A DNA stretch of 64,000 bases from Rhodocyclaceae bacterium (GTDB lineage: Bacteria; Pseudomonadota; Gammaproteobacteria; Burkholderiales; Rhodocyclaceae): positions 19,335 through 83,334 of the forward strand of contig JAGRGD010000037.1 in assembly GCA_020445665.1 (NCBI GenBank), in the 5' to 3' direction. Below the pieces are notes generated by a model. That model had not been told where the DNA came from, did no database searches, and saw nothing but the letters and a program-made list of their open reading frames with translations. Below are positions 7,304 through 16,477 of this stretch, one piece after another (position 1 is the stretch's first letter; every line of letters starts with the position of its first letter). Both the position numbers and the translations under genes were made by a program.

Positions 7304-7340
7304 CCGCGGCGCACCCGTGATCGTTGCGGGTGTTGAGCAG

Positions 7341-7545
7341 CCGAGGTGCCCCGACGCCATCCAGGCCAGGGGTTGAACGGGAAGCAGGTGCGCGAAGCCC
7401 GCCTTCGCAAGGCCTGCGCTGCCCCCGCAACGGTAAGTGGAATGCGGGTCCATCTTCCGCCACTGGACGTTTCGTCCGGGAAGGCGATGGACCCCGGCGT
7501 GGCCCGCCCGCCATCCACGAGCCCGGATACCGGCCCGACTGCCAA
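7341..7545 (+). promoter_or_regulatory. Cobalamin riboswitch
   Basis: The conserved landmarks of the B12 riboswitch appear in order: GGGAA followed by GGTGCGAAGCC-type sequence near 7379-7400 (GAAGCAGGTGCGCGAAGCC), the GCTGCCCCCGCAACGGTAAG core at 7419-7438, GCCACTGG near 7459-7466 and CCGGGAAGGCGATGG near 7477-7491, then the B12-box region GAGCCCGGATACCGGCC at 7519-7535. It precedes btuB-btuC-btuD and should repress them when adenosylcobalamin is plentiful. Outer helix limits are approximate. Bases 7204-7713 contain no gene apart from this element and the hairpin at 7668-7695. Confidence 0.93.
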
Positions 7546-7667
7546 CGTCGTGCCCCTGCCTGACGACAGGGTGCGCCACGAGCTGTCGGGCCGCGGGGAG
7601 GCGGCCACGGGCGCGGCATCCCTTTCGCTCCTGTGTCACTCCCGCGTTCCCGATCCATGTCGAAAAC

Positions 7668-14580: not shown

Positions 14581-15033
14581 ATGCTGAAGAGCATTCTCGA
14601 CTTTTTCCAGCAATCTCTCGCACCGGAAGGCGCGAAAGCCGAGTCCACCGAGCGCCGCCTGCAACTCGCGACCGCGGCCCTGATGCTGGAGATGTCGAAA
14701 GTGGATGGCGTGGTGTCAGAGCCGGAATTGCTGGCCATGCGCCAGGCGCTGGCGGAGCAGTTCGACCTGGCTGAGGATGCGATCGGCCGTTTGCTTGACC
14801 TCGCCGACGCGGAAGCGCGGGATTCGGCCGGCGACTACGCCTTCACCTCGCTGATCAACAAGGGCTACTCGCCGGAAGAGAAGGTCCGGGTCTTCGAGTA
14901 CATGTGGCGCATCGCCTACGCCGATGGGCATGTGGATGCCCACGAGAATCATTTCATGCGCAAGCTCGCCGACCTGCTCTACATCTCCCGCGCGGATTAC
15001 GCGGAGGCCAAGCGGCGGGCGCGGGAGGGCTGA
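14581..15033 (+). CDS. TerB-like (COG4103) protein
   Basis: A 150-residue, all-helical, acidic soluble protein. The repeated half-motif MSKVDGVVSEPELLAM and AYADGHVDAHENHFM places paired Asp/Glu residues as in the metal-binding TerB fold, hence the family call. Family members are widespread beside housekeeping genes and most have no proven role in tellurite resistance. The ATG at 14581 is preceded by CAGGAG. It ends convergently three bases before the small secreted protein gene. Confidence 0.8.
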   Translation: MLKSILDFFQQSLAPEGAKAESTERRLQLATAALMLEMSKVDGVVSEPELLAMRQALAEQFDLAEDAIGRLLDLADAEARDSAGDYAFTSLINKGYSPEEKVRVFEYMWRIAYADGHVDAHENHFMRKLADLLYISRADYAEAKRRAREG

Positions 15034-15036
15034 GCC

Positions 15037-15450
15037 TCAGTCGAGCATCGCCACTTCAACGGGGCGCCAGAAGGTCACGTCGCAGTCGGCCTTGCCAAAG
15101 CACACCGAGAAGTTGGCCAGTTGCTCCATCAGTTCGCCGCCTTCGTCGGGGTGGTTGAACATCGGAATCGACACCTCGGCATCGAGCAGTTCCGCCTCGG
15201 CACGGATGATCTCGCGAACGTTCGGCGGCAGGGGCTTGGCGCCCGGAACGGGCTGGGCGATCTTCACCGCGCGCTCGGCGGCATCGCTGTCGGCGGCCGC
15301 GGCCTGAAGGACGCAGCGCACCGTCATGTCGTTGTTGTACCAGCAGACCCAGCGCGTCATGCCCGTCTGCTGGGCGAACGCCGGAGAGGCGGCCATGATG
15401 AAACCGATGCATGCCAGGATGATGCCGAGTTCTTTCGCCAGATTCCGCAT
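15037..15450 (-). CDS. Small secreted protein of unknown function under a c-di-GMP riboswitch
   Basis: A 137-residue protein. Residues 1-26 form a clear Sec signal peptide ending SPAFA. The mature part has four Cys (36, 46, 117, 123) that could form two disulfides in the periplasm, with WVCWYNNDMTVRC near the start and CFGKADCDVTFW near the end. I do not recognise a family. It sits alone on the minus strand downstream of a sigma28-type promoter and a c-di-GMP-I riboswitch, so its level should follow motility state and c-di-GMP. The ATG at 15450 has GAGG eight bases upstream; an in-frame ATG at 15501 would hide the signal peptide and lies inside the leader. Confidence 0.8.
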   Translation of the reverse strand: MRNLAKELGIILACIGFIMAASPAFAQQTGMTRWVCWYNNDMTVRCVLQAAAADSDAAERAVKIAQPVPGAKPLPPNVREIIRAEAELLDAEVSIPMFNHPDEGGELMEQLANFSVCFGKADCDVTFWRPVEVAMLD

Positions 15451-15456
15451 GTCCGT

Positions 15457-15522
15457 CGCCTCGTGCTGGGCGGGACCGGTTGCGGACAGGGGATGCGGCA
15501 AGGGGACACCCGCGACGAGGCG
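15457..15522 (-). promoter_or_regulatory. Possible ribosome-binding-site sequestering stem (riboswitch expression platform)
   Basis: On the minus-strand RNA, CGCCUCGU (from 15522-15515) is perfectly complementary to ACGAGGCG (15464-15457), which contains the GAGG ribosome-binding site eight bases before the ATG at 15450. The pairing would close a 50-base loop and block translation. Which ligand state favours it cannot be told from sequence alone. Confidence 0.45.
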
Positions 15523-15529
15523 AGCGCTT

Positions 15530-15626
15530 CCCGTGGAAGCCCGGCAATCCCGCTGTCGTAGAACCGTAGTCCCTTAGACCGGTGACTTTGCGCCCCCGCC
15601 TTTCGGTCGGGTTTGCCCTTTTCGGG
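15530..15626 (-). promoter_or_regulatory. Class I cyclic di-GMP riboswitch (GEMM-I)
   Basis: Read on the minus strand, the conserved GEMM-I core is present in order: AGGGCAAACC, a GACCGAAAGGC stem with GAAA tetraloop, GGCGCAAAG, CACCGGUCUAA, and later ACAGCGGGAUUGCCG, which corresponds to the UAGCGGGGUUACCG segment of the Vibrio Vc2 aptamer. Flanking CCCG...AAG and CUU...CGGG can form the closing helix P1. It stands about 80 bases before the ATG of the small secreted protein and about 75 bases after the predicted sigma28 start. Bases 15451-15766 hold no gene, only this leader and its promoter. Confidence 0.9.
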
Positions 15627-15708
15627 TGGGTACGCATCAGCTAGCGCTGCGAGCACCCCTCCTTCTCAATTTGTCGGCCGACCGGTTTCCCGGCTGGCCT
15701 TGGGAGAG

Positions 15709-15735
15709 CTATCGGCCCCCCCTTGCCCGACTTGA
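15709..15735 (-). promoter_or_regulatory. Sigma28 (FliA)-type promoter before the c-di-GMP riboswitch
   Basis: On the minus strand TCAAGTCG (15735-15728) is separated by exactly 11 bases from GCCGATAG (15716-15709), close to the FliA consensus TAAAGTTT-N11-GCCGATAA. It lies in the intergenic space just after the alaX stop and points at the riboswitch and the secreted protein. Same form and spacing as the site at 6609-6635. Confidence 0.7.
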
Positions 15736-15766
15736 TACGGGCTGCGGACAGTGGGCGTGATCCATG

Positions 15767-16477
15767 TCACACCGGGTCATCGGCAAAGATCAGGGTCACC
15801 CGCTTGTTGCGCCGACCCTCGCTGCGGATCCGTGCCACACGCAGCCTGCCGATCTCGCCGGTGCGCTTCAGGTGGGTGCCGCCGCACGGCTGGTAGTCCA
15901 CGTCGCCAACCCGGATGGTGCGCACGCTGCCCTGGCCCCGGGGTGGCTGCACCGACATGGTCTTGACCAGGCCGGGGTTGGCATCCAGTTCCTCGTCCCG
16001 GATGGCACCGGCCTCCACCGGAAGATCGGCCTCGACCAGCGCATTGAGGCGGGCCTCGATGACGCCGGCGTCCAGCAGGGACATGTCGATGTCGAAGTCC
16101 AGATGGGCCTTGTCCTCCGCCATCCTGCCACCGGTCACCGGTGCGTCGACGACGGCACAGAGCAGGTGCAGAGCGGTGTGGAAGCGCATCAGGCGATGGC
16201 GGCGCGACCAGTCGATGGTGGCCGATACCGCCTGACCCACCGCGAGCGGCGCGAGGCCTTCGACCTGATGGATGACTTCGCCGCCTTCCCCTTTGACGGT
16301 TCCCACGACCCGGATCTCCCGACCACCCGCCACGAGGCTGCCGGTATCACCCGGCTGCCCGCCCCCGGTCGGATAGAAGATGCTGCGGTCGAGCACCACC
16401 TGCCCCGGCTCGACACGCACGACCATCGCGTCGCACTCGCGGGCATAGGCATCATCGTGGAACAGGGCAATCGTCAT
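15767..16477 (-). CDS. alaX: Alanyl-tRNA editing protein AlaX
   Basis: A 236-residue free-standing relative of the AlaRS editing domain that hydrolyses Ser (or Gly) mischarged to tRNA-Ala. The zinc site is visible as HTALHLL (HxxxH, about residue 100) and QPCGGTHLKRTGEIG (CxxxH, near residue 200). FYPTGGGQPGDTG near the N-terminus is typical of AlaX-M, which is longer than the minimal AlaX-S. Its ATG overlaps the stop of the AEC transporter gene by four bases, so the two are probably one transcript. Confidence 0.93.
   Translation of the reverse strand: MTIALFHDDAYARECDAMVVRVEPGQVVLDRSIFYPTGGGQPGDTGSLVAGGREIRVVGTVKGEGGEVIHQVEGLAPLAVGQAVSATIDWSRRHRLMRFHTALHLLCAVVDAPVTGGRMAEDKAHLDFDIDMSLLDAGVIEARLNALVEADLPVEAGAIRDEELDANPGLVKTMSVQPPRGQGSVRTIRVGDVDYQPCGGTHLKRTGEIGRLRVARIRSEGRRNKRVTLIFADDPV

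Follow-up and report, generated by a model that had tools for sequence, protein, structure and literature searches.

In enteric bacteria, the sigma factor FliA (sigma28) is freed upon completion of the flagellar hook-basal body. Accounts of how c-di-GMP controls motility generally place its action above the flagellar cascade. A c-di-GMP riboswitch tied to flagellar control is found in Clostridioides difficile, where a class I (GEMM-I) element in the flgB operon leader reportedly acts upstream of sigD, so that c-di-GMP is said to control the sigma factor. At the locus described here, this relation would be turned round, in that transcription of the riboswitch would itself depend on the sigma factor. 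The nearest published case in the passages compared is the attack phase of Bdellovibrio, which has FliA as a global regulator and massive expression of merRNA, a c-di-GMP riboswitch RNA (PMC3627812). In those passages, the Bdellovibrio FliA-type promoters read TTAAG-N16-CCGATA, and merRNA is non-coding, has a table row that lacks the FliA-promoter mark, and is followed by no conserved ORF that the authors found (PMC3627812). The likeness to the present locus is that FliA-type promoters and c-di-GMP riboswitch RNA appear in one motility programme. By contrast, the riboswitch here precedes a protein gene, and a sigma28-type site is located upstream of it.

Among described coding GEMM-I elements (RF01051), none stands behind a sigma28 promoter in the passages compared. 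The locus shares with this family an aptamer that matches over its full length and exceeds the curated score, but differs from described members in having no intrinsic terminator in a scan of 14900-15900. A literature search returned no report of sigma28 promoters before c-di-GMP riboswitches, which is weak evidence in that subscription papers were mostly outside the search. Riboswitches and promoters of these two kinds are both known; what is new, as far as we found, is their systematic union.

We consider it likely, from the arrangement of sequence elements, that this leader has two inputs, with FliA setting transcription and a c-di-GMP riboswitch setting the output level. FliA-RNA polymerase would transcribe the gene in cells at a late stage of flagellum assembly, and the transcript would begin about 75 nt upstream of the riboswitch, which would then tune the amount of protein, probably by acting at translation. 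The product would be a small, probably secreted protein, perhaps with two disulfides. The same arrangement of sites also precedes other genes, including those of DUF1631 proteins and peptidases. Because FliA is freed upon completion of the hook-basal body, flagellated cells would be the ones that make the leader RNA. The preliminary description of this DNA further proposed that agreement of both conditions would be required for the protein to be made, a reading that is supported in its anatomy and hypothetical in its logic. If the proposal is true, then the late flagellar sigma factor writes a riboswitch RNA, and a single leader reads both that the flagellum is finished and the level of c-di-GMP.

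The leader and its protein in a Rhodocyclaceae genus

The locus lies within a 64,000-nt stretch of a Rhodocyclaceae genome (the window), and its features are collected in Table 1.

Table 1. Coordinates of the leader elements and of the downstream gene in the window.
Feature	Position	Strand	Basis
-35 element, sigma28-type, TCAAGTCG	15728..15735	-	Read directly; T.AAG invariant in five orthologous leaders
-10 element, sigma28-type, GCCGATAG	15709..15716	-	Read directly; GCCG invariant in five orthologous leaders
Predicted 5' leader, putative start (~15702) to aptamer	15628..15702	-	Deduced from promoter position
c-di-GMP-I (GEMM-I) aptamer, RF01051	15540..15627	-	cmscan, 78.7 bits, E 8.7e-14
Expression platform, 89 nt	15451..15539	-	Folds
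P0001, 137 aa, probably secreted four-Cys protein, no named family	15037..15450	-	Translation

The preliminary description had read a GEMM-I aptamer from the letters and had suggested a covariance search with the Rfam model. This search gave a strong match (Table 1) that spans model positions 1-87, which is the whole model, against a gathering score of 35. The closing helix of the aptamer (P1) is formed by CCCG (15626-15623) and CGGG (15543-15540); it is CCCG/CGGG in four orthologues and CTCG/CGAG in G002, a single compensatory pair in an aptamer that is almost invariant in the alignment of the five orthologous leaders. GGGCAAAC in the window aptamer has G at every candidate counterpart of the ligand-discriminating position (G20 of Vc2; G versus A). 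In the passages compared, a G20A GEMM-I structure was solved with cGAMP (PMC6274999). We infer that the RNA at 15627-15540 binds c-di-GMP and would serve as its sensor. The source genome (4.79 Mb in 341 contigs) contains two GEMM-I elements, and the second has TCAAG-N14-GCCGAAG 40 nt upstream and precedes a long ORF whose product looks secreted by eye.

The sigma28-type promoter of the preliminary description was also recovered, as TCAAGTCG-N11-GCCGATAG is present with 11 nt between the octamers. Its cores end 82 nt upstream of the aptamer and match at all 12 positions scored in our core test (TMAAG and GCCGAWA with 14 nt between cores). We take TMAAG-N14-GCCGAWA to be the sigma28 (FliA) consensus, and we compared it with the flagellin loci of the order. 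Use of this promoter by FliA is predicted from these letters. The source genome encodes FliA (TIGR02479, 279.5 bits against a cut-off of 189.6; G000:C86:15019-15684) and has three flagellin-domain genes, one of which has TCAAGTTA-N11-CCCGTAAT 109 nt before the domain, with a closely resembling site in G001 and G003. A flagellin gene of the genus thus also has C as the second base of its -35 element. The other two flagellin-domain genes of the source genome have no upstream site above 9 of 12.

Among 30 flagellin loci of the order, each scanned over 400 nt, 18 scored at least 10 on the forward strand and 6 on the reverse strand. A flagellin matrix was trained on 16 promoters that we chose from these 30 loci (score at least 10, 66-121 nt upstream). 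The window site scores 13.5 with this matrix, compared to a training range of 16.0-26.0; the orthologous sites score 7.0-7.7 (G001, G002, and G003) and 10.4 (G005), and the site before the second GEMM-I of the source genome scores 3.4. The low scores in G001-G003 and at the second GEMM-I arise because their -10 elements read GCCGAAA, GCCGTAG, or GCCGAAG.

Sequence comparison confirmed that the riboswitch, the promoter-like site, and the protein are conserved in this genus. In five of the six genomes (G000, G001, G002, G003, and G005), a GEMM-I precedes an orthologue of the protein, the G005 gene being truncated by a contig end, and G004 gave no match to the protein or the riboswitch. Before the orthologous riboswitch, TMAAG-N14-GCCGAWA is exact in G000, G001, G002, and G005, and G003 matches at 10 of 12 positions. 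In the five-leader alignment, invariant columns make up 8 of 9 in the cores (TNAAG plus GCCG), compared to 0 of 14 in the spacer, and 15 of 85 from GCCG to the aptamer.

The third element of the preliminary description, a small four-Cys protein of no named family, held as well: P0001 matched no Pfam and no NCBIfam family at E up to 1. By eye, it has a signal-peptide-like start containing one Cys, followed by four more, so that it is probably secreted and perhaps stabilised by two disulfides. Compared to its G003 orthologue, dN is 0.12 and dS is 0.63, which suggests that P0001 is a real gene under constraint. A structure predicted from a four-row alignment had a mean pLDDT of 46.8, and a 14-member family profile gave no credible match among PDB sequences (best E 0.45). 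A profile search for the family gave 17 matches in 11 of 121 genomes. Nine family members follow a GEMM-I (the five genus orthologues, those of G014, G017, and G033, and one of two in G057), and six of these nine have a sigma28 site scoring at least 10 within 150 nt, those of G014, G017, and G057 having none at this score and distance. By comparison, none of the eight members without a GEMM-I has an upstream site scoring at least 10, which implies that promoter and riboswitch tend to co-occur in this family.

Sigma28-type sites before GEMM-I elements of the order

In the order (Burkholderiales in GTDB terms), 57 genomes have GEMM-I elements that exceed the cut-off, 111 in all, and we scored the DNA upstream of each; the source genome was included, three weaker matches were excluded, and six of the aptamers had variant cores. 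A sigma28 site of at least 10 of 12 was present within 150 nt upstream of 28 of the 111 elements, compared to 2 of 111 on the reverse strand and 0 of 111 far upstream (-500 to -300). The same score was reached on the forward strand of 1 of 30 TPP riboswitch leaders of relatives (30 of the 47 matches listed). At a score of at least 11, the count within 150 nt was 17 of 111 versus 0 on the reverse strand, and a 300-nt version gave 17 versus 0, with 4 in 2220 mononucleotide shuffles. When the distance between the cores was varied from 8 to 20 nt, 28 elements were positive at 14 nt and 0-6 at the twelve other distances. Moreover, a motif-free count of 4+4 dyads with gaps of 8-22 ranked TCAA-N15-GCCG first (13 of 111), and 19 of 111 reached a score of at least 12 with the flagellin matrix, compared to 3 on the reverse strand, none far upstream, and 0.6% of shuffled sequences. 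Positives occur in 21 of the 57 genomes, and nine of the 28 belong to the genus of the window. Two are probably due to chance, namely L122 (AAAGG core, 114 nt away) and L037 (from a genome without FliA above the cut-off).

A second sample consisted of 88 further GEMM-I elements, two with variant cores, among the matches listed for previously unused genomes of the order; 28 of these came with their DNA, and 60 we picked, mostly in rank order and with their upstream DNA not yet seen. In this sample, which includes a few tandem neighbours with overlapping upstream DNA, 13 of 88 were positive at 14 nt; every other distance gave 0-3, and the reverse strand gave 1 of 88. The 13 positives are spread over 12 genomes and 6 genera, some of which are shared with the first sample. 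In both samples together, the sigma28 arrangement occurs at 41 of 199 GEMM-I elements. In the rest of the class, 1 of 29 new loci among the matches listed scored at least 10 (0 on the reverse strand), and the flagellin matrix at a score of at least 12 gave 2 of 29 forward and 1 of 29 reverse. These counts imply that the coupling is a feature of the order in these samples rather than a general GEMM-I trait. By genome, the association was suggestive: FliA was above its cut-off in 99 of 121 genomes, and GEMM-I was above its cut-off in 51 of these 99, compared to 6 of the 22 without FliA (p = 0.058).

The reverse strand of the TPP leaders gave 5 of 30 sites scoring at least 10, and four of these are directed at a single divergent gene that recurs between genomes and whose product looks secreted by eye. 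This protein lies opposite the TPP riboswitch in four genomes of other genera (L165, L167, L168, and L175) with the sigma28-type site upstream, and a similar-looking protein with an exact sigma28-type site occurs in the source genome (L066). The sites of the divergent genes have TCAAG-N14-GCCGAAA or a near variant, a form that they share with the GEMM-I sites of the genus, and the protein is likely a FliA target without a name. Read as real promoters, these sites support the GCCGAAA form of the -10 element in this family; they also imply that sigma28 sites occur outside GEMM-I leaders.

The sigma28-like site before a real riboswitch might instead be a chance match or a relic, with transcription starting at some other promoter that escaped recognition or running on from the same-strand gene upstream. 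Exact matches to TMAAG-N14-GCCGAWA number 17 over both strands of the genome, compared to 2 for a reversed control pattern, and the -10 element of the genus deviates from the flagellin form. The exact pattern by itself was dropped as evidence, as one match that recurs in the genus is antisense inside a long ORF, which looks by eye like that of a penicillin-binding protein. Even so, 17 matches correspond to about 0.0003 expected per 150 nt of one strand. A chance site is also hard to reconcile with cores that are invariant around an unconserved spacer in five genomes, with the order-wide enrichment at a single distance that was repeated in the second sample, and with the 0 sigma70-type sites found in 14900-15900. 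Thus, we regard a chance site as improbable and favour a functional sigma28 promoter before the riboswitch. The broader proposal is that Burkholderiales have repeatedly joined sigma28 and the c-di-GMP riboswitch into one module, a coincidence gate that would sense flagellum completion and c-di-GMP within a single 5' leader, placed before genes of secreted and DUF1631 proteins with roles in the motile-to-attached transition; here we see the balance as even. Because the pairing recurs in several genera, standard reporter constructs could address the question.

Genes downstream of the coupled elements

The 28 sigma28-positive elements precede, besides the five genus orthologues, 23 proteins, among which are 9 DUF1631 proteins, 4 M12-type peptidases, 3 members of the S8 peptidase family, and 2 proteins with a carbohydrate-binding domain. 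The 82 other downstream proteins, from which the ORF of L034 was excluded as too short, include 10 DUF1631, 6 S8, and 4 M12 proteins. DUF1631 is therefore somewhat commoner among the positives (9 of 28 versus 10 of 82; p = 0.02). Under the two-input reading, these genes become candidates for the motile-to-attached transition, and the DUF1631 proteins and an unnamed protein family become likely FliA targets.

Among all proteins encoded after GEMM-I elements in this set, DUF1631 is the family seen most often (L018, L021, and 17 more proteins), and it has few mentions in the part of the literature covered by our search. At L122 (G034:C1:408766-410850), a GEMM-I at G034:C1:410266-410350 lies directly before a FliA/WhiG-like gene (409495-410142; 149 bits with the FliA/WhiG model, which is below the cut-off). 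This c-di-GMP riboswitch may control a FliA-like sigma factor.

Expression platform and direction of switching

No terminator-like site was found in 14900-15900, and the ribosome-binding-site region had a mean openness of at most 0.49 in predicted folds of the five orthologues, such that at least half of it is paired on average. Together, the apparently terminator-free leader and this partial pairing suggest control at translation, and the c-di-GMP input probably acts there, to judge from these models. Intrinsic terminators were few after the 111 aptamers as a whole (4 of 28 sigma28-positive and 12 of 83 other elements, several of poor quality).

The sign of the response was weighed from the folds and the downstream genes. 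High c-di-GMP might close the ribosome-binding site, so that motile cells with low c-di-GMP make the protein and the two inputs are concordant. This OFF response, which we put only just short of an even call, is consistent with the ability of CGCCTCGT (15522-15515) to pair with ACGAGGCG (15464-15457), which contains the ribosome-binding-site-like GAGG and could close the region in the window, and with unconstrained folds of G002 and G005, in which the 3' half of the aptamer pairs with the platform. However, locking the aptamer hardly altered the opening of the ribosome-binding-site region in the window (0.20 to 0.17), and folds with and without a locked aptamer revealed no switch in the five orthologues. 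Alternatively, the mRNA might be made in flagellated cells and translated as c-di-GMP rises, in which case the protein would mark surface contact. The peptidase families among the downstream genes are consistent with an ON response, as is Vc2, a known ON-type element for which the passages compared describe positive, c-di-GMP-responsive regulation of a reporter (PMC4545359). The folds give it no structural support, and we hold it as a tentative reading, possible but less than even. If the leader is of the OFF type, the protein would mark motile cells; if it is of the ON type, the protein would mark flagellated cells with rising c-di-GMP, as upon surface contact.

Several other riboswitch arrangements were seen in the genomes searched. 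Tandem GEMM-I pairs on the same strand, about 140-180 nt apart, occur at G480:C1:2670311/2670551, G469:C62:19744/20008, and G170:C36:975/1197. Two divergent pairs face away from each other, one at G008:C18:88577 (-) and 89017 (+), about 350 nt apart, and one at G041:C41:35925 (-) and 36244 (+), about 240 nt apart. One genome of the class (G268) has 15 GEMM-I matches, most of which are unusually long at about 104-114 nt. The window itself also contains a cobalamin riboswitch at 7329-7549 (+; 85.1 bits), and several ORFs between 11 and 14.5 kb resemble, by eye, cobalamin-biosynthesis genes.
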